Assembly (NCBI GenBank): GCA_005888335.1
Contig: VAWY01000123.1
Span: forward strand, 13,029 to 77,028
Source of the DNA: Actinomycetota bacterium
GTDB lineage: Bacteria > Actinomycetota > Thermoleophilia > Solirubrobacterales > Solirubrobacteraceae
Direction of reading: 5' to 3'
DNA: 64,000 nucleotides
A program made the translations under genes and the position numbers. The notes under the pieces were generated by a model, which worked only from the letters and a program-made list of their open reading frames with translations, did no database searches and was not told the origin of the DNA. Positions within the stretch are counted from its first letter, which is position 1; every line of letters starts with the position of its first letter. Shown here piece by piece: positions 9,556 through 58,173 of this stretch.

Positions 9556-9635
9556 GGGGCGCGAGGGTAGGACGAGGTCCTAGGACGGTTGTCCCATGGT
9601 GGTCGGGCGGGGTGCGGTCTAGCGTGCCGGTCACC

Positions 9636-9953
9636 ATGCCTGGAACTTCGCTTTTCATCGCCGTTCTCGCCGCCCTGACCCTCGCCCTCGTTCCGGGAAC
9701 GTCGCTCGCCAAGGGCGGCGACGACACCAAGCTCGAGGGCCGCGTGGTCTCCGTCGACCGGGGCGCGCGGGCCTTCCGCCTGCGGGACTCCGAGCGCGGG
9801 ACGTTCCGGATCTATGTCACCCGCTCGACGCGGTTCGAGCGCGTTGCGGGGTTCGGCGCGCTGCGCGCCGGGCGCCGTGTCGAGGTCGAGTTCTGCCGGT
9901 CGGGCGGGCGCGTGGTGGCGGTGAAGATCGAGCCGGGTGGGTCGCATGGGTAG
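9636..9953 (+). CDS. Small secreted protein with an OB-like (DUF5666-type) domain
   Basis: The ATG at 9636 gives a 105-residue protein starting with a signal peptide (TSLFIAVLAALTLALVPG, cleavage near SLAKG); a GTG 24 bp upstream is the alternative. The mature part has KLEGRVVSVDRGARAFRLRD, YVTRSTRFERVAGFGAL and VEVEF...VVAVKIEPGG, the strand pattern seen in DUF5666-like domains of secreted actinobacterial proteins. Function unknown. It ends 10 bp before element A and faces the malQ gene convergently. Confidence 0.6.
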   Translation: MPGTSLFIAVLAALTLALVPGTSLAKGGDDTKLEGRVVSVDRGARAFRLRDSERGTFRIYVTRSTRFERVAGFGALRAGRRVEVEFCRSGGRVVAVKIEPGGSHG

Positions 9954-10074
9954 GGGCTCGGGGCGCTCCGCTCGTTTGCCGCGGCGGGTTGCGGCCGCGT
10001 CGGTGGCACCGAGGGAAAACGAGCCTGGTCTGCGCCCGGGCCGAGCGGCAACACGCCACGCGCGGTGACCCGGG

Positions 10075-10127
10075 GCAACGAGAGAGGGATCGACCGCCTA
10101 TATCGCGGTCGATCGCTCTCTCGTTGC
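10075..10127. repeat. Central palindrome of element A
   Basis: Arms of 23 bp beginning GCAACGAGAGAG pair with an end ...CTCTCTCGTTGC around a 7-nt AT-rich loop containing CTATAT; there is one mismatch. The same palindrome, with perfect 19-bp arms, occurs in copy B at 44312-44356. The AT-rich loop stands out in this GC-rich DNA. Confidence 0.85.
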
Positions 10128-10245
10128 GGACCGAGCGGCAACCCGCCACGCGCGCCCCAGGGAGGCGCGCGGAGCGCGCTCGACAGGTGCGGCCACAAGG
10201 ACGAACCGCTCCTTCCCCTCAGTGCAATCGGACCACGTCGCAGCC

Positions 10246-10426
10246 CGCCACACACGCCCGAGCGGAGCGCCCGCGGCGGCGACCCGCCACACACGCCCGA
10301 GCGGAGCGCCCGCGGCGGCGGCCCGCCACACACGCCCGAGCGGAGCGCCCGCGGCGGCGACCCGCCACCCACGCCCGAGCGGAGCGCCCGCGGCGGCGAC
10401 CCGCCACACACGCGCGAGCGGAGCGC
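10246..10426. repeat. Tandem 39-bp repeats, about 4.6 copies
   Basis: Units start at 10246, 10285, 10324, 10363 and 10402, each beginning CGCCACACACGCCCGAG and ending GCGGCGGCGACC, with only a few base changes between them. The last unit is cut after CGAGCGGAGCGC. The unit contains the element's terminal sequence, so the array looks like slippage or unequal exchange at the end of copy A; copy B has a single unit. A short CAACAG-type run follows at 10427-10446. Confidence 0.9.
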
Positions 10427-10451: not shown

Positions 10452-11663
10452 TCAAGCCCGCCCCGCCTCCTCCGTCACCTCCCGCAACCGCCCCGCATGC
10501 CCCGCCCCCAACTCCCCCGACCGCAGCCGCCACTTCCACGCCCCCCGCGCGCGCCCCGGCACGTTCATCCGCGCCTCGGGACCCAGCCCGAGCACGTCCT
10601 GCAGCTGGGTCATCGCCACCGCCGCCCGCGACGAGAACAGCAGCCGGATCAACGCCCAATGCACATCACGATCAGCCGGCATCGCCGCCCGGGCCGCAGC
10701 CCGCTGCTGCGCGCCCACCGACGCCCACCACCCGGCCAGCGTGTCGGTGTCGTGCGTGCTCGTGTACGCCACCGACTGCTCCTCGTGATTCGAGAGCCGG
10801 TGCGGCCCGCGCGGGTCGTCGGGCTCGAACGCCCACTGCAGCACCACCATCCCGGGCAGTTCGAGCGACCGCCGCAACGCCGTCACGGCCGGCGTGATGA
10901 CGCCCAGGTCCTCGGCGATCAGCGGCAGCTGACCGAGCTCGGAGACCATCGCCTCGAAGACCGCCCGCCCCGGCCCGCGCCGCCACCGGCCGGCGCGCGC
11001 GTCGCGCGCCGCCCGCGGCACCGCCCAGTACGCGACGAACCCGCGGAAGTGGTCCACGCGCGCCAGATCGAACAGCTCCACCGTCCGCCGCAGCCGCTCG
11101 ATCCACCAGCGATAGCCCCGCCGCCGCAGGGCAGGCCAGTCGTAGATCGGGTTGCCCCACCGCTGGCCCTTCGACGAGTACGCGTCCGGCGGCACCCCCG
11201 CAACCACGTCCTCCAGGAACAGCTCCGGGTGCGCGCGATGGTCCGCCCCACGCGGCGCCACGTAGATCGGCACGTCGCCGATCAGCCGCACCCCCGCCGA
11301 AGCGGCATACCCCCGCAAAGACGCCCACTCGCGCTCGAAGCGGACCTGGTCGGCCACGGCGCCGCGCCCGGCGAACCGCTCCCAATCGCCGATCCACGCC
11401 GCGTGGCGCTCGCGAAACGACGACTCGTCGCCCGCAGACACCCGCGCTCGCGGCTTCTCCAGCAGCCCCGCCCAGGCCGCGAAGGCCGACGGAGACTTGT
11501 ACGGGGAGCCGTAGCGGTCCGGCGGCCCGAGGGGCAGCATCTGCCACCACGACTGCCTCGCGGACGCAAGCCAGTCCACGAACCGGTATGCCTCAGGTCC
11601 CAGCCGCCCTCCGGGCAGTGACGTGGGATGCAGCTGGACGCCGGCGCTTCGCGGGAGGTTCAC
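10452..11663 (-). CDS. malQ: 4-alpha-glucanotransferase (amylomaltase, GH77)
   Basis: The GTG at 11663 gives 403 residues starting VNLPRSAGVQLHPTSLPGG, the classic MalQ opening. Family landmarks follow: WWQMLPLGP, SPYKSPSAFA, IGDVPIYVA, RVDHFRGF (nucleophile Asp), LIAEDLGVIT (acid/base Glu), STHDTDTLAGW (third Asp) and LGLGPEARMNVPG near the end. It transfers alpha-1,4-glucan segments between maltodextrins and releases glucose. At about 400 residues it is shorter than most MalQ (about 500), mainly through a shorter middle section; all catalytic residues remain. It is divergent from glgE with only 46 bp between the start codons, so the two share a regulatory region. Confidence 0.92.
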   Translation of the reverse strand: MNLPRSAGVQLHPTSLPGGRLGPEAYRFVDWLASARQSWWQMLPLGPPDRYGSPYKSPSAFAAWAGLLEKPRARVSAGDESSFRERHAAWIGDWERFAGRGAVADQVRFEREWASLRGYAASAGVRLIGDVPIYVAPRGADHRAHPELFLEDVVAGVPPDAYSSKGQRWGNPIYDWPALRRRGYRWWIERLRRTVELFDLARVDHFRGFVAYWAVPRAARDARAGRWRRGPGRAVFEAMVSELGQLPLIAEDLGVITPAVTALRRSLELPGMVVLQWAFEPDDPRGPHRLSNHEEQSVAYTSTHDTDTLAGWWASVGAQQRAAARAAMPADRDVHWALIRLLFSSRAAVAMTQLQDVLGLGPEARMNVPGRARGAWKWRLRSGELGAGHAGRLREVTEEAGRA

Positions 11664-11709
11664 GGTTTTGACGTTACGAACGGTCGAAGAGCGGACACAG
11701 ACGGGGCCA

Positions 11710-13601
11710 GTGCCCGGCCCTCGCGAATGGCAACCGCGCATCCAGATCGAGGACCCCCGGCCGCTCGTCGACGGCGGCCGGTACCGCGCCAAGGCGGTCG
11801 CGGGCGACACCTACCAGGTCGCGGCGCTCATCTTCCGCGACGGCCCCGACATCCTGCGCGCCGTCGTCAAGTCCCGCCCGCAGGGCGCCGCCGAGTGGCG
11901 CGAGGAGCCGCTGCACTGGATCGACGCCCACGAGGGTGGCGATCGGTGGGCGGGGAGCTTCCCCATCGACGTCCAGGGCATCTGGGAATGGACGGTCGAG
12001 GCGTGGACCGACGCCTTCGCCTCGTGGCGCTCCGAGCTCGAGCGCAAGGTCGACGCCCGCCAGCCCGACCTCTCCGGCGAGCTCTCGGAGGGCATGCTCC
12101 TGCTGCGCCAGGCGGCCGAGCGCGCCACCGGCGAGGACCGCGCGCACATCGAGGCCGCCATGGCCGACGGCAGCCCGGCGGCCGCGCTGGACCCCGCGCT
12201 GCTGGAGATCGTCCGCCGCCATCCGGACCGGTCGGACGCGACCACGCTGCCGCGCCCGATCGAGATCAACGTCGATCGCGGGCGCTTCGGCTCCTGGTAC
12301 GAGCTCTTCCCGCGGTCGTGGGGCGGGTTCGCCGGGGTCGAGCGCCAGCTGCCGCGCCTCGCCGAACTCGGCTTCGACGTCCTCTACCTGCCACCGATCC
12401 ACCCGATCGGCCGCACCAACCGCAAGGGCCGCAACAACTCCCTCAACGCCGGCCCCGACGACCCCGGCAGCCCGTGGGCGATCGGCCTGCACGGCGTCGG
12501 CGGCCACACCGCGATCCACCCCGACCTCGGGACCGACGAGGATTTCCGCCGCCTCGTCGTCGCCGCGCGCGAGCACGGGATCGAGATCGCGCTGGACTTC
12601 GCGATCCAGTGCTCGGCCGACCACCCGTGGCTGACCGAGCACCCTGAGTGGTTCAACCGCCGTCCGGACGGCACCCTCAAGTACGCCGAGAACCCGCCCA
12701 AGAAGTACCAGGACATCTACAACGTCAACTGGGACTGCGACGACTGGCGCGGGCTGTGGCAGGCGCTGCTCGACGTCGTCCTGCACTGGGTCGAGCGCGG
12801 CGTCACGGTGTTCCGCGTCGACAACCCGCATACCAAGCCGACACCGTTCTGGGAGTGGCTGATCGCGGAGGTCCGCCGCGAGCACCCCGACGTGATCTTC
12901 CTCGCCGAGGCGTTCACCCGCCGCGCCAAGATGGACACGCTGGCCAAGGTCGGGTTCAACCAGTCCTACACGTACTTCACGTGGAAGAACGCCCGCTGGG
13001 AGCTCATCGAGTACGTCGTCGAGCTGGCCTACTCCGACGAGCGCCACTACTTCCGGCCGAACTTCTTCGTCAACACGCCGGACATCCTCACCGAGTACCT
13101 CCAGCACGGCGGCCGCCCGGCCTTCGAGGCGCGGCTCGTCCTCGGCGCGACGCTGAGCCCGACCTACGGCATCTACTCGGGCTTCGAGAACGTCGAGAAC
13201 GTCCCCGTCCGGCCCGGGAGCGAGGAGTACCTGGACTCCGAGAAGTACGAGATCAAGCACCGCTCCCTCGACGGCCCGCTCCTGCCGCTCATCCAGCGCG
13301 TCAACGAGATCCGACGCGCACACCAGGCGCTGCACCACCTCGACACCGTCACGTTCCTCGACACCGCCAACGAGGCGCTCGTCGGCTACGCCAAGCGCGC
13401 CTGGGACGACATCGTGATCTGCGTGGTCAACATCGACCCGCGCTGGGCGCAGGAGGGCGTGGTCGTGCTCCCGGCCGAGCTCGGGCTGCCGCCGACGTTC
13501 AGCGTCGTCGACGAGCTCGGCGGCGACCGCTACACCTGGCACCTGGGCCGCAACTACGTTCGCCTCGAGCCCGGCAAGTCGCACGTGCTGACGATCGAGC
13601 G

Positions 13602-30984: not shown

Positions 30985-31167
30985 CGAGTGGGCGCGTCCA
31001 TGAGTCCAACGGGTTTCGGCCGCCGCTGGCAGCCGCCTGGACCCACCCGTCGGTCCTCGGACTATTCCCCACCCACCCACACCTTCGGACGCCGGGCGGC
31101 GGGTGGGTGGGCGAGTTCCGGCCAGCGACGCCCGATGACCCGCCGGACCCACGGACGCGCCCACTAG
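30985..31167. repeat. 183-bp palindromic element C, copy 1
   Basis: Same length and same orientation as 46091-46273, and nearly identical from GCTGGCAGCCGCC through GGCCAGCGACGCCCG. The ends are inverted repeats: AGTGGGCGCGTCC at 30987 and GGACGCGCCCACT ending at 31165. The right end reads CTAG (31164-67), while the left has CGAG where copy 2 has CTAG. An internal hairpin pairs CCCCACCCACCC with GGGTGGGTGGG. The length and paired ends fit a MITE-like non-autonomous element, or a fixed regulatory hairpin; no transposase is nearby. Confidence 0.85.
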
Positions 31168-43378: not shown

Positions 43379-44119
43379 ATGTCCGTCGACTCGCCCACGC
43401 GCCGACACCCCACGCCACCCCCGCCGCCGCCCAAGCGCGGCGGTGTCAACGTGCTCACGCTCGTCATCGCGGCGGTCAGCTCGGTCGTCGCCGCGATCCT
43501 CGTCGGCAAGATCTGGGCGTCGGGGACCCTGTGGGCGACCGCGATGACGCCGGTCATCGTCGCGCTGGTCAAGGAGGCGCTCGAGCGCCCGGCGCAGCGG
43601 GTGCGCGAGGTCAGCGTGGTCGGGCGGCGCCAGAGCGGTGAGGAGCTCGTCGTCGAGGAGGTCGAGCCGCCCACCGCGGCCGGCGCCCCGCCGGAGCCCG
43701 CCGGCTACCGGACCTACGGGATCCGGCGCAAGCACTGGAAGGTCGCGATCGTGACGGGGCTGTTGGCCTTCGTGCTTGGCGCGCTCGTGCTGACGGTCCC
43801 GGAGTTGGTTGCTGGGCGCTCGATCACCAACGGCGGCCGAGCGACGACGCTCTTCCATGGCAAGGCTCGCGTGGCGCGGCACAAGGAGAAGCAGCAGACC
43901 GAGACGACGACGACGGAGACGGTGACGACGACGACGCCCGGAGCGACTGAGACGACGCCGGGGGCGACGGAGACGACGCCGACGACTCCGACGGAGACCA
44001 CGACGACGCCGGGGGCTACCGAGACGACGCCGAGCGGCGGCCAGACGGTGCCGCCGGCGGCCACGGCGCCCGGGGGCGAGACGCCGCCGCCGGCGGGGAC
44101 GACGACGCCGGGGGGGTAG
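43379..44119 (+). CDS. Two-helix membrane protein with Thr/Pro-rich tail
   Basis: 246 residues. Proline-rich start, helix 1 about 24-46 (VLTLVIAAVSSVVAAILVGK), an amphipathic middle with charged residues, helix 2 about 120-140 (VAIVTGLLAFVLGALVLTV) and then an 80-residue tail of TTTTPGATETTP-like low-complexity repeats probably outside the cell. Such Thr/Pro tails act as wall-spanning stalks. No catalytic domain. Unknown family. Confidence 0.7.
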   Translation: MSVDSPTRRHPTPPPPPPKRGGVNVLTLVIAAVSSVVAAILVGKIWASGTLWATAMTPVIVALVKEALERPAQRVREVSVVGRRQSGEELVVEEVEPPTAAGAPPEPAGYRTYGIRRKHWKVAIVTGLLAFVLGALVLTVPELVAGRSITNGGRATTLFHGKARVARHKEKQQTETTTTETVTTTTPGATETTPGATETTPTTPTETTTTPGATETTPSGGQTVPPAATAPGGETPPPAGTTTPGG

Positions 44120-44135: not shown

Positions 44136-44472
44136 GCGCTCCGCTCGCTCGTGTGTGGCGGGCTGGGGCGTGGTCCGATTGCACTGAGGGGAAGGAGCGG
44201 TTGGTCCTTGTGGCCGCACCTGTCGAGCGCGCTCCGCGCGCCTCCCTCGGGGTTTCGGCGCGGTGGGACCGCGAGCGTGACGCGCCTGGCGCGTTGCCGC
44301 TCGGTGGCAGTCGAGAGAGCGATCGACCGCGATATAGGCGGTCGATCGCTCTCTCGTTGCCCCGGGTCACCGCGCGTGGCGTGTTGCCGCTCGGCCCGGG
44401 CGCGGACCAGGCTCGTTTCCCTCAGTGCAATCGGACCCGGCCGCGACCCGCAACCAACGCCCGAGCGGAGCG
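44136..44472. repeat. Dispersed structured element, copy B (inverted relative to copy A)
   Basis: 337 bp, mostly identical to the reverse complement of 9963-10426. Nested inverted repeats are clear here: outer GCGCTCCGCTCG (44136-47) with CGAGCGGAGCG (44462-72); inner 17-bp perfect arms TCCGATTGCACTGAGGG (44174-90) and CCCTCAGTGCAATCGGA (44419-35); and a central hairpin with 19-bp perfect arms CGAGAGAGCGATCGACCGC (44312-30) around GATATAG. Like copy A it separates two convergent genes (the Thr/Pro-tail protein and the sigma factor). No coding frame in it is credible. Confidence 0.85.
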
Positions 44473-44503: not shown

Positions 44504-45064
44504 CTAAGCCGCCACAACCTCCCCCAACGCCCCCCGCGCCCGCACCAGCAGCGACTTGGTCGCCGGCACCGACGTCCCGAGCGTCGCCGCCATCTCGGCG
44601 TGGCCGATCCCGCAGAACTCCCGCATGATGAGCGCGAGCCGCTGGCGCTCCGGCAGCCGCCCGATCTCGGCCACGACGTCGCGCACGCGCTCGCGCTCGG
44701 CCGCGCGGACCGCCGGGTCGGCGTCCTCGGCCGGGCGCAGGTGGGCGACGTCGTCGAGCTCGGCGACGGCGCGCGCCGGCCGGCGCAGCTCGTCCATCGC
44801 GCGGTTGCGGACGATCATGTACAGCCACGGCTTGAGGTTCATCGCGGCGTCGGTGGCCCGCAGGCCGGCGAGCGCGCGGATGAAGGCGTCCTGGACGACG
44901 TCCTCGGCGTCGTGGCCGGTGCCGGAGAGCAGGCGGCGGGCGAAGGCGAGCAGGCGGTCGCGGTAGCGGTTGTGGATTGCGGCGAAGGCATCGTCGCGTC
45001 CGGCGCGGACGAGGGCGACGAGGCGCTCGTCGTCGAGCTGTGAGGTCAGGGCGTAGGAGGGCAT
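44504..45064 (-). CDS. ECF-type RNA polymerase sigma factor
   Basis: 186 residues from ATG 45064. Region 2 with the LLAFARRLLSGTGHDAEDVVQDAFIRAL and WLYMIVRNRAMDELRR signatures, and region 4 with LPERQRLALIMREFCGIGHAEMAATLGTSVPATKSLLVRARGAL. It binds core polymerase and reads a specific promoter class. No anti-sigma gene is adjacent. It is divergent from the FHA regulator gene across about 97 bp. Confidence 0.93.
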   Translation of the reverse strand: MPSYALTSQLDDERLVALVRAGRDDAFAAIHNRYRDRLLAFARRLLSGTGHDAEDVVQDAFIRALAGLRATDAAMNLKPWLYMIVRNRAMDELRRPARAVAELDDVAHLRPAEDADPAVRAAERERVRDVVAEIGRLPERQRLALIMREFCGIGHAEMAATLGTSVPATKSLLVRARGALGEVVAA

Positions 45065-46091: not shown

Positions 46092-46273
46092 TAGTGGGCC
46101 CGTCCGCCGGTCGGACGGCTTTCGGACGCCGCTGGCAGCCGCCTGGACCCACCCGTCGGTCCTCGGACTGTTCCCCACCCACCCACACCTTCGGACGCCG
46201 GCCGGCGGGTGGGTGGGCGAATTCCGGCCAGCGACGCCCGACGACCCGCCCGACCGACGGACGCCCCCACTAG
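46091..46273. repeat. 183-bp palindromic element C, copy 2
   Basis: Both ends are CTAG and the outer arms pair (CTAGTGGGCCCGTCC at left, GGACGCCCCCACTAG at right); the first about 50 bp of each arm are roughly three-quarters complementary. The inside has the CCCCACCCACCC / GGGTGGGTGGG hairpin. Length equals copy 1 exactly. The left CTAG overlaps the GTG start of the DUF167 gene. The right CTAG supplies the TAG stop of the kinase gene. Confidence 0.85.
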
Positions 46274-51954: not shown

Positions 51955-52797
51955 GTGCCACATGGTGTACGCCGACGTGAGCGCGTGCTGTTCGCGCTCG
52001 CGGGGGTCGCATGCTTCATTCCGCTGTTCGGCGCTGGAAGCGCGACGGCGGCGAGCAACAAGTACAAGCCTGCCCTGACCTCGAGCTCGTCCGGGGGCGC
52101 GTCGATGGACCGCTTCCATCACCTCGGGTCGCGGGCACTGCGGCGCGACCTCAAGGGGCACGACGTGCGCGTGGCGCAGGACTACCTGCGCAAGGCCGGC
52201 TTCCGCGTGCAGATCGACGGCTTCTACGGCCCCGGCACGGTGCGCGCCGTCCGCCAGTTCGAGCGCGCCAACGGCCGCCCGGCCGATGGCACCCTGAGCA
52301 TGGCCGACATCACCTTCCTGCGCGGCTTCGTCGAGCGCGGCGGGCAGGCCGCCCGCGTCCGCGGCGTCCGCTCGATGGCGGCGACCGCCGACCACGCGGG
52401 CCTGAACGCCGACGGCACGGCCACGGCGCCCGAGGGCGCTCCGCCCGAGATCGCGGCGATCATCGCGGCCGGCAACCGGATCGCGACGCTGCCCTACCGC
52501 TACGGCGGCGGCCACGGGCGCTGGGAGGACAACGGCTACGACTGCTCGGGGTCCGTCTCCTACGCGCTGCACGGGGCCAACCTCCTCGACAGCCCCCTGG
52601 CGTCGGGCGACCTCGCCCGCTGGGGCGAGTCCGGGCCCGGCGAGTGGGTGACGATCTACGCCAACGGCGGACACGCCTTCATGGTCGTGGCGGGCCTGCG
52701 CTTCGACACCAGCGGCCGGTCGGCGACCGGCACCCGCTGGCAGGCCGACATGCGCTCGCCGAGCGGGTACACGATCCGCCACCCGCCCGGGCTGTAG
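51955..52797 (+). CDS. Secreted cell-wall hydrolase: peptidoglycan-binding domain plus NlpC/P60-like domain
   Basis: 280 residues from GTG 51955. Signal peptide (VLFALAGVACFIPLFGAGSATAA); PG_binding_1 domain about 60-110 (GHDVRVAQDYLRKAGFRVQIDGFYGPGTVRAVRQFE); C-terminal NlpC/P60-like domain with nucleophile Cys in NGYDCSGSVSYALH and a His in NGGHAFMVVAG. It would cut peptidoglycan stem peptides in the wall. It sits directly under a c-di-AMP riboswitch, which matches the wall role. No strong ribosome site; AGAGGGGGG about 12 nt upstream. Confidence 0.9.
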   Translation: MPHGVRRRERVLFALAGVACFIPLFGAGSATAASNKYKPALTSSSSGGASMDRFHHLGSRALRRDLKGHDVRVAQDYLRKAGFRVQIDGFYGPGTVRAVRQFERANGRPADGTLSMADITFLRGFVERGGQAARVRGVRSMAATADHAGLNADGTATAPEGAPPEIAAIIAAGNRIATLPYRYGGGHGRWEDNGYDCSGSVSYALHGANLLDSPLASGDLARWGESGPGEWVTIYANGGHAFMVVAGLRFDTSGRSATGTRWQADMRSPSGYTIRHPPGL

Positions 52798-55899: not shown

Positions 55900-58173
55900 A
55901 TGCGCCGCGCCCTGCTCATCGCCCTCGTGCTGCTGGCCGCCGTCCCCGCGGCGGCGGGCGCCCGCGTGCTCGTCGTCGGCACCGGGACGCCGATGGTCGC
56001 GCTGGTCGACGTGGCCACCGGCGCCCTCGCCGCGCAGCTCGACGCCGGCGCGCCGACCGGGGCGGTCGCGGTCGCCCCCAACGGCCGGACGGCGTGGGTG
56101 GCCGCGGGCAACCAGGTCGTCGCGCTCGATCCCAACGCGCGGGCCCTCGGCGTGCGGACCGACCTCGGCGTCCCCGTCGGCGGCCTGGGCGTCTCGCCGC
56201 GCGGCGGCCGCGTCTACGCCGTGGCCGGCGACCGGCTGGCGGTGCTCGACGCGACCACGCTGGCGCGCCTGCGCACCGTCCCCCTGCACGGAACCGCGCT
56301 CGGCCCGCTGGCCGTGTCGCGCGACGGCACGCTCGCCGCCGTCCCGCTGGCGCGCTCGCGCGTCGCGCTCGTCGCCCTCGGCGCGATGCGCACGCTGCGG
56401 CGCGTGAAGGTGCGCCGCGCGGCCGGCGCCGCCTTCGACGGCCGCGGCGTGCTGTGGGTCGCCGCCTCGGACGCGCGCCTGTACCCGGTCCACCCGTACC
56501 AGCGCCGCAAGGCGGTCGGCCGCCCGCTGCGGCTGGGCCGCGGCGTGGGCGGGGCCGTCGCCGCCTCGCCCGACGGCCGCCGGCTGCTGGTCGGCGCGGC
56601 GGCCCGCGCGCCGCGGGCCGCGCTCGTCGACCCCTTCGCCCGCCGGGTGCACGGCCTGCGCGCAGGCCCGGGGCCCGGCCGCCCGGGCTGGTCGCCCGAC
56701 GGCATCCGCGCCTACCTCGCCGACGCGGGCTCGGGAGACCTGTCGGTCGTCTCGCCCCTGCGCGGCAGCCGGCTGGGCTCGATCGACCTGCCGCCCGGGT
56801 GGCTGCCTGACGGGGTCGTCGTGCAGCCGGGGCTGGCCACCGTGCCCGGCACGACCGCCGACGACCGCCTGCTCGGCACGCGCCTGCGCGACCTCCTCGA
56901 GGGCTACGCGGGCAACGACACGCTCGAGGGCCGCCGCGACAACGACGTCCTGCACGGCGACGAGGGCGACGACACGCTGCTGGGTGGCTCCTACGACGAC
57001 CGGCTGCTCGGCGGCGCGGGCGCCGACCGCCTGTTCGGCGGCTCCGGAAACGACCGCCTCGAGGGCGGCGACGACGCCGACCTCGAGAACGGCGGCACGG
57101 GCGACGACTCCGTCCACGGCGGCCCCGGCAACGACCTGCTCGACGGCGGCGACGGCGACGACCACATCTTCGGCGACAGCGGCGACGACCGCATCGTCGA
57201 AGCCGGCTTCGGCAACGACCGCCGCGTCTTCGGCGGGCCGGGGAACGACTACATCTCGACCGGGCGCGGCTCGGACCTCGCCAACGGCGGCGACGGCGAC
57301 GACCAGCTGCTCGGCGGCAACGGCACGGACATCCTCAGCGGCTCGAACGGCAACGACGTCATCGACGGCGGCCTGGGGCGCGACCGGCTCTGGGGCAACG
57401 ACGGCAACGACCAGATCAAGGGCGAGCAGGGCAACGACGACCTGACGGGCGGCGCCGGCGCCGACACGCTGGACGGCGGCACCGGCGACGACGTCATCGA
57501 CGGCGGCGACGGCGACGACACGATCATCGCCGGCCCCGGCCGCGACTACGTCTCCGCGGGCGCCGGCGACGACACCATCCGCGCCGCCGACGACAACGCC
57601 GACCACGTCAACTGCGGCCCGGGCGAGGACGTGGTCTTCGTCGAGGACGACGCCGTGCGCGACTCGCTCTACAACTGCGAGACGGTCGAGCGCGTCCCGC
57701 CCGAGGCGTCCACCGACGACACGTCGTTCTCGCTGATCACCGGCACCCGCGGCGCCGATCAGCTCTCCGGGACGCCGGGCCCGGACACGATGCTCGGGAA
57801 GGCGGGCGCCGACGTCATGTGGGGCAACGCGGGCGACGACTACGTCGACGGCGAGTATGGCGCCGACGAGCTGCACGGCGGGCCCGGCAACGACCGCCTC
57901 GCCGGGCGCTCCGGCGACGACCGGATCTTCGGCGACGCCGGCGACGACACGATCACCGGCGACCGCGGCGCCGACCACATCGCGGGCGGGTCGGGCAACG
58001 ACCGGATCTTCGGCAACCTCGATGCGGACGTCATCTCCGGCGGGCCGGGCGACGACCGCATCAACGTCGTCCGCGGCGACGTCGACGACGTCCGCTGCGG
58101 TCCGGGCCGCGACATCGTCTACGCGGACGTGGCCGACCACGTGGCGCCCGACTGCGAGGTCGTCGAGCGCTAG
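55900..58173 (+). CDS. Secreted protein: YVTN-type propeller plus RTX-like calcium-binding repeats
   Basis: From ATG 55900, 757 residues. Signal peptide (ALLIALVLLAAVPAAAGA). Residues about 25-300 form a beta-propeller of YVTN/NHL type (GTPMVALVDVATGALAAQL, GDRLAVLDATTLARL). From about 320 to the end there are about 30 RTX-like nonapeptides (GGxGxDxLxG style: LLGGAGADRLFGGSGNDRL), which bind calcium as a parallel roll. There are two RTX blocks, split by a spacer with an acidic loop (FVEDDAVRDSLYNCETVERV). Export route not readable; no peptidase or cyclase is fused. Confidence 0.85.
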   Translation: MRRALLIALVLLAAVPAAAGARVLVVGTGTPMVALVDVATGALAAQLDAGAPTGAVAVAPNGRTAWVAAGNQVVALDPNARALGVRTDLGVPVGGLGVSPRGGRVYAVAGDRLAVLDATTLARLRTVPLHGTALGPLAVSRDGTLAAVPLARSRVALVALGAMRTLRRVKVRRAAGAAFDGRGVLWVAASDARLYPVHPYQRRKAVGRPLRLGRGVGGAVAASPDGRRLLVGAAARAPRAALVDPFARRVHGLRAGPGPGRPGWSPDGIRAYLADAGSGDLSVVSPLRGSRLGSIDLPPGWLPDGVVVQPGLATVPGTTADDRLLGTRLRDLLEGYAGNDTLEGRRDNDVLHGDEGDDTLLGGSYDDRLLGGAGADRLFGGSGNDRLEGGDDADLENGGTGDDSVHGGPGNDLLDGGDGDDHIFGDSGDDRIVEAGFGNDRRVFGGPGNDYISTGRGSDLANGGDGDDQLLGGNGTDILSGSNGNDVIDGGLGRDRLWGNDGNDQIKGEQGNDDLTGGAGADTLDGGTGDDVIDGGDGDDTIIAGPGRDYVSAGAGDDTIRAADDNADHVNCGPGEDVVFVEDDAVRDSLYNCETVERVPPEASTDDTSFSLITGTRGADQLSGTPGPDTMLGKAGADVMWGNAGDDYVDGEYGADELHGGPGNDRLAGRSGDDRIFGDAGDDTITGDRGADHIAGGSGNDRIFGNLDADVISGGPGDDRINVVRGDVDDVRCGPGRDIVYADVADHVAPDCEVVER

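Follow-up and report, generated by a model that had tools for sequence, protein, structure and literature searches.

A family of long-armed palindromic repeats between convergent genes in Solirubrobacterales

Known palindromic repeats and the two copies in the window

ERIC/IRU and other large palindromic interspersed repeats are large imperfect palindromes in intergenic regions; the repeat described here resembles them as a large intergenic palindrome and, as far as their general descriptions go, is set apart from them by sequence and taxon. According to excerpts of PMC3733652, REPs are 20-40 bp long, contain G-T pairs and are found chiefly in gaps between unidirectional and convergent genes; in two genomes, most of them are no more than 20 bp away from both 3' ends, and those of E. 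coli are targets of gyrase. Their frequent occurrence between convergent genes is also described in an excerpt of PMC1525189. A preference of IS630 for TA in CTAG is stated in the title of a reference cited in PMC2170065. Like REP/BIME sequences, as the same excerpts portray them (PMC3733652, PMC1525189), the present repeat comprises dispersed palindromes of mosaic build, with G-U pairs in their stems, located in convergent gaps near both 3' ends. Unlike them, it has inverted arms of 65-100 nt with a conserved sequence of their own and a total length of about 300-450 bp, and it also occurs where no RAYT was detected in the genome. We regard it as a genuine family of mobile-type repeats, a general kind that is known and whose niche is already known from REPs; what seems new is the mosaic build with long arms in this order. 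No earlier description of the family was found in the open-access literature searched, a scope outside which most subscription journals lie.

The window, a stretch of 64,000 nucleotides, contains two copies of the repeat, A and B (Table 1). They are inverted copies with 83% identity over 341 columns of a joint BLAST alignment (E ~1e-100), their inverted relation comprises arms of 141 nt (92% complementary) and 116 nt (95%), and their longest exact blocks measure 55, 44, 36 and 34 nt, confirming the original prediction of inverted copies with long identical blocks. Also as the prediction had described, the two copies have in common their outer ends (GCGCTCCGCTCG / CGAGCGGAGCG) and a palindrome at the centre, GATCGACCGC-(AT loop)-GCGGTCGATC. 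The element is composed of two inverted arms, each with an outer end like GGCGCTCAGCGCG followed by a GTGGTCYGATTGCACYGAGGGGA-like block, around a central hairpin; along B, the outer end GCGCTCCGCTCG is followed by a conserved stretch ending in GTGGTCCGATTGCACTGAGGGGAAGGAG, a middle with the AT-loop hairpin and the inverted arm. Compared with B, copy A has a 39-nt tandem array at one end, and the middle of B is longer than that of A by 29 nt. The arms were modelled by R1, a 70-position profile of one arm built from 24 arm sequences (window and genomes G004, G011 and G171). Tandem arm units in 86-nt steps, comparable to the 39-nt tandem units of A, were also observed in genome G054 (L327:164-375).

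Table 1. Coordinates of copies A and B, their parts and the neighbouring genes in the window
Feature	Position	Strand	Evidence and remarks
Left neighbour of A, DUF5666 gene	9624..9953	+	PF18914, 32 bits, cut-off 27 (tested from 9636)
Copy A, total	9963..10426		Core 9963..10270 plus tandem part
Copy A, core	9963..10270	- (strand with better-conserved arm first)	R1 arm match 10205-10270, - strand, 52.8 bits
Central palindrome of A	10075..10127	.	GATCGACCGC-CTATATC-GCGGTCGATC core, AT loop; self-inverse BLAST match
Tandem amplification at outer end of A	10271..10426	-	39-nt unit, repeat family D2, four extra copies; R1 matches at 10272, 10311, 10350 and 10389, 16.6-19.2 bits (span 10272-10426)
Right neighbour of A, 4-alpha-glucanotransferase gene (malQ)	10452..11810	- (stop at 10452)	PF02446, 379 bits
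Left neighbour of B	43451..44119	+	Gene call; no Pfam match
Copy B, complete, both arms well kept	44136..44472	+	R1 matches 44136-44201 (+, 49.7 bits) and 44406-44472 (-, 55.4 bits)
Central palindrome of B	44312..44356	.	Self-inverse BLAST match; predicted fold
Right neighbour of B, sigma-70-family (ECF-like) gene	44504..45064	- (stop at 44504)	PF04542, PF08281

The gene calls agree with the predicted position of both copies between convergent genes in otherwise featureless gaps, A facing the DUF5666 gene and malQ, and B the Pfam-less gene and the sigma-70-family gene. Neither gap contains a tRNA, an Rfam family or a gene called by the codon-model gene caller, and the elements were therefore taken as non-coding. 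At the Rfam gathering score, A and B remained unmatched, and the sole match in the window was a c-di-AMP riboswitch (RF00379, 51773-51943, 76.2 bits) located before a called gene at 51985. The window also harbors RTX-type calcium-binding nonapeptide repeats (56845-58173; PF00353, 282 bits) with a 27-nt periodicity in the DNA, and its MalQ has a best-scoring match of 66% identity among 232 genomes of the order and of up to 72% over parts in other genomes.

Copy B is predicted to fold into one long hairpin (z -11.3), and the predicted fold of A reaches z -6.1, with none of 100 shuffles as good in either case. A scan for stems followed by a T-run found no site in A (0.3 in shuffles) and one in B, at its edge (0.4 in shuffles), indicating that U-tract terminators are not above chance; a promoter scan of both copies also found nothing above chance.

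Copies in related genomes

Relatives were searched in 232 genomes from the order of G001, the genome of locus L027 and taxonomic centre of the search. The central palindrome, used as a pattern on genome contigs, returned 103 stretches, 80 of which were listed and from which L027 was taken. The pattern was rejected as mostly yielding chance palindromes: when A and B were compared by BLAST with the loci obtained from it, the matches were all short (best E 5e-4). With B as a DNA query within the family, 22 places in 18 of 146 genomes were matched, mostly short and chance-like, and the places in G004 and G011 held up. The G004 place is a related element with both arms, which as a DNA query found itself and short matches only.

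A pattern of the arm motif matched 52 of the 232 order genomes, and G171, a single contig of 3.42 Mb, gave 11 matches, compared with 0 for the reversed control. One G171 copy used as a BLAST query produced 17 matches at 12 places in that genome, up to 94% identical and at unrelated sites, and by inspection the copies form two subfamilies of 12 and 4. At E<=0.01, R1 matched 56 of the 232 genomes, most of them with single weak matches that were not counted as family members. Repeated R1 matches, which arise partly by construction in the building genomes and are independent in G010 and G054, were found in G171 (18), G011 (21 at 17 places), G010 (8 at 7 places), G054 (5) and G004 (4 at 3 places), with weaker ones in G006 (4) and G029 (3). 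In samples drawn from the class and the phylum, run with stricter filters than the order search, R1 matched 4 of 399 and 1 of 396 genomes, respectively, at E<=1e-4. Multi-copy families are thus present in the order, and A and B are not two copies without relatives, part of the outcome that the original prediction had named as speaking against it.

Inverted R1 arm pairs were detected at L301, L302, L303, L308, L309, L314, L317 and L322, and weakly at L320 and L312; in G011, G010 and G004 they measure about 290-390 bp from end to end. Thirty arm stretches from 15 elements give a consensus that begins near GGCGCTCAGCTCGGGCGTTGGTCG and continues with GCGTGGTCCGTCGGCACCGAGGGGAG. The element family of Solirubrobacterales can be described as roughly 300-450 bp long, with arms of about 65-100 nt and one or more central hairpins. 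The elements resemble MITEs in being short and non-coding, in their terminal inverted arms (inverted R1 pairs in B and about nine copies of relatives), in occurring, as seen in relatives, in multiple copies at unrelated sites without a gene of their own, and in their near-empty orthologous sites. Unlike MITEs, their arms hold further hairpins, and the centre is often replaced by other repeats in relatives.

Placement and orthologous sites

Placement was scored with the codon-model gene caller, whose calls were checked against families within the window. In G171, 10 of 18 copies lie between convergent genes (7 tandem, 1 divergent), as do 24 of the 28 scorable copies in other genomes, the exceptions being e301, e305, e313 and L335, whereas the background comprises 54 convergent gaps among 376 (twenty 20-kb stretches, G171 only). 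These counts answer the question, raised with the original prediction, of whether gaps between convergent genes are preferred: they are. A first count took 16 copies in G171 and 26 elsewhere (20 convergent, 2 tandem and 4 unscorable: e314, e304, e322 and e317). Site e313, first scored as convergent, was recounted because its orthologues place it between tandem genes, and convergent (L321, L318, L348, L369, L371), tandem (L335 and, in G171, the weak matches L319 and L334) and unscorable rows (L327, L328, L329, L370) were added. Other weak single R1 matches were left out, as were L331 and L332, which lie inside genes and are probable chance matches. The outer end begins within about 40 nt of a stop codon in many copies, although not in all, a placement at 3' ends of convergent or unidirectional genes that corresponds to that of REP/BIME sequences.

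This strong preference and the very stable hairpins predicted on both strands would suit a bidirectional terminator or insulator kept by selection at facing gene ends, with the shared sequence reflecting function and dispersal being secondary, and a two-way transcription end, one of the roles first proposed, would be compatible with the data. However, orthologous gene pairs manage without the element, some of them overlapping at CTAG, and it occurs in no more than a few per cent of the convergent pairs of G171 (10 copies, set against 54 gaps in 0.4 of 3.42 Mb). In addition, A and B contain no excess of U-tract terminators, and unrelated sites have the arm sequence, not just the shape, in common, making selection for termination an unlikely origin of the family.

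For 14 sites in G011, the flanking sequences were sought in five relatives; e305, e308 and e309 were unmatched at the cut-off, e302, e314 and e333 were matched by one flank only, and a few right flanks of orthologous sites rest on a DNA match. Near-empty sites were found for e311 (gap of 316 nt in G011 vs 5 in G006), e303 (329 vs -4 in G012), e310 (246 vs -4 in G012 and about 20 in G006), e315 (180 vs -4 in G010), e306 (171 vs about 43 in G012 and about 90 in G006) and the tandem site e313 (about 225 vs about 40 in G010, about 18 in G006 and about 10 in G012). At the three sites with a gap of -4 (e303, e310 and e315), the stop codons overlap in the relative with a common CTAG. Long orthologous gaps without an arm match were found for e311 in G012 (~710 nt), e315 in G006 (~440), e300 in G010 (~445) and e307 in G010 (~270 vs 547), and at the e303 site in G006 a gap of ~410 nt contains a weak arm match (14.4 bits). 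The near-empty sites could be deletions rather than sites that were never filled. Elements e312 (G011) and e324 (G010) abut the same gene, but G011 has an extra gene on the opposite side; they were rejected as a shared filled site, and inheritance was not argued from this neighbourhood.

No arm was found at the malQ locus in 30 cases examined among relatives (best R1 8.9 bits, E 0.26), and in 10 of these 30 loci no more than 30 nt separate malQ from a lipase-gene homologue. In the window, the lipase gene is followed by the DUF5666 gene and copy A and then by malQ, and the DUF5666 gene and copy A may have arrived together or in turn.

The family is multi-copy, its arms are shared between genera, its placement is mostly convergent, near-empty orthologous sites exist and its centre is exchangeable in relatives. 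Judged from these sequence comparisons, A and B are probably copies of a mobile palindromic element, non-coding and non-autonomous: a MITE/BIME-like mosaic that either inserts at the ends of convergent genes or persists there. Among the roles offered by the original prediction, that of a non-autonomous mobile element is the one favored by the multi-copy families in relatives, the unrelated sites and the near-empty orthologous sites.

Exchangeable centres and CTAG as a possible target

The centre of the element varies from copy to copy in relatives, and the central hairpins of G171 and the window differ from the G011/G010 type. For the latter, a loose hairpin regular expression matched everywhere and a strict one was used instead; 13 hairpins, 11 from G011 and 2 from G010, are each exactly 49 nt long, with a nearly constant outer stem (GRTCCGGGTC) and a variable inner stem. 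In their alignment, 89.0% of cells are paired, compared with 42-54% after a one-column slide, and 33 cells are changed on both sides vs 14.7 in shuffles (0 of 500). Copy-specific covariation of the arms was not detected in G011, where same-copy arms scored 0.685 vs 0.666 for different-copy arms and 13% of permutations were as high. Compensatory changes, which the original prediction had sought in the arms, are therefore strong in the 49-nt hairpins at the centre of elements in relatives but not seen for the arms in the G011 permutation test.

The 49-nt hairpins also stand alone, outside arm elements. Their model, R2, matched 28 places in G011 (11 in arm elements), 9 in G010, 10 in G006 and 10 in G012, with strands merged, and none in 8 other genomes. 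At G006:C1:3470808-3471019 (L348:3509-3720), a 49-nt hairpin lies ~100 nt from a weak arm match in a convergent gap, suggesting that G006, too, probably harbors an arm element in diverged form.

The stable predicted fold of A and B and the covariation in the central hairpins of relatives would also be in keeping with a structured non-coding RNA gene. However, the copies have no Rfam match and no promoter-like site, the centre is exchanged between copies and the G011 arms lack copy-specific covariation, rendering an RNA gene highly improbable.

Alternatively, the family could be a REP/BIME system that owes its movement to a RAYT (Y1) transposase, with the arms as large REP dimers. The niche at 3' ends is as published for REPs (excerpts of PMC3733652), REP-like 49-nt hairpins are nested in the centres of G011 and G010, and PF01797, the Y1 transposase family, was matched in G011, G006 and G012. 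However, PF01797 was not found in G171 (16 clear copies), G010, G004 and G054, all of which carry arm copies, leaving RAYT unsupported as the driver of the arm element, and R2 had no match in four RAYT loci. In addition, the arms greatly exceed the unit size of 20-40 bp stated for REPs (excerpts of PMC3733652), and so does the whole arm element (300-450 bp); the nested hairpin (49 nt) is also longer than such a unit. On balance, movement of the arms by RAYT is very unlikely. Of the genomes without the 49-nt hairpin, the 6 that were tested for both lacked PF01797. The repeat AAGGGGTCAGACCCCTT occurs in the G011 RAYT locus L336 and, with one extra base, inside element e308, and CAAGGGG(G)TCAGACCCCTTGA repeats were found at L308:1683-1799 (element centre) and L336:1904-1988 (Y1-transposase locus), both in G011, possibly reflecting a RAYT-REP pair nesting in the arm element. 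The hairpin, R2 and RAYT-locus data thus indicate that the centre in G011 and G010 consists of nested REP-type hairpins, with the arms as a separate family.

For the mobile palindromic element favored here, CTAG or TA may serve as the target. In 400 kb of G171, CTAG was observed 199 times vs 1054 expected from composition; 78 of these sites are at stop codons, including 10 at overlapping convergent stops, and 86 are elsewhere intergenic. Each of the 9 convergent subfamily-1 sites of G171 has TAG on either side, and the convergent subfamily-2 site has TAG/TGA; in the G171 sample, TAG/TAG occurs in 17 of 54 convergent pairs. Copy B carries TAGGGCG at both ends. At element sites of G011, the stops are mostly TGA and the junctions have no TA on both sides, so that the CTAG idea is supported in G171 and B but not in G011. 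A clean target duplication was not seen at the element junctions examined. The TA/CTAG at the ends of B and of many G171 copies and at empty sites recalls IS630/Tc1-mariner elements, a likeness from which the G011 junctions without TA on both sides depart.

The window contains a second, unrelated palindromic repeat of 181 nt, in two direct copies (30987-31167 and 46093-46273) that are 91% identical and fold well beyond shuffles (z -8.3). CTAG is present at both ends of the 46093 copy and at one end of the 30987 copy, in agreement with the CTAG idea. BLAST of this repeat against the loci fetched gave no match.

The element would be copied into junctions of convergent genes, presumably by an enzyme acting in trans. 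Such junctions may be tolerated or targeted as insertion places because CTAG is rare in these high-GC genomes and concentrated at stops and between genes, and because both reading frames stay intact. Once in place, the long hairpin would separate the two genes and probably hinder read-through into the opposite gene. A more specific two-part mosaic, in which a constant outer element seeks the CTAG of overlapping stops, separates the genes undamaged and then becomes a landing pad for exchanged REP-type central hairpins, is conceivable but doubtful.

Collectively, these repeats would represent a family of interspersed repeats in an actinobacterial order that has received little study. In related genomes, the same pairs of convergent genes occur both with the large hairpin and without it, so that its effects on termination, antisense transcription and supercoiling can be tested. 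Should the CTAG link prove true, one simple rule would describe the build-up of repeats at facing gene ends in high-GC genomes.
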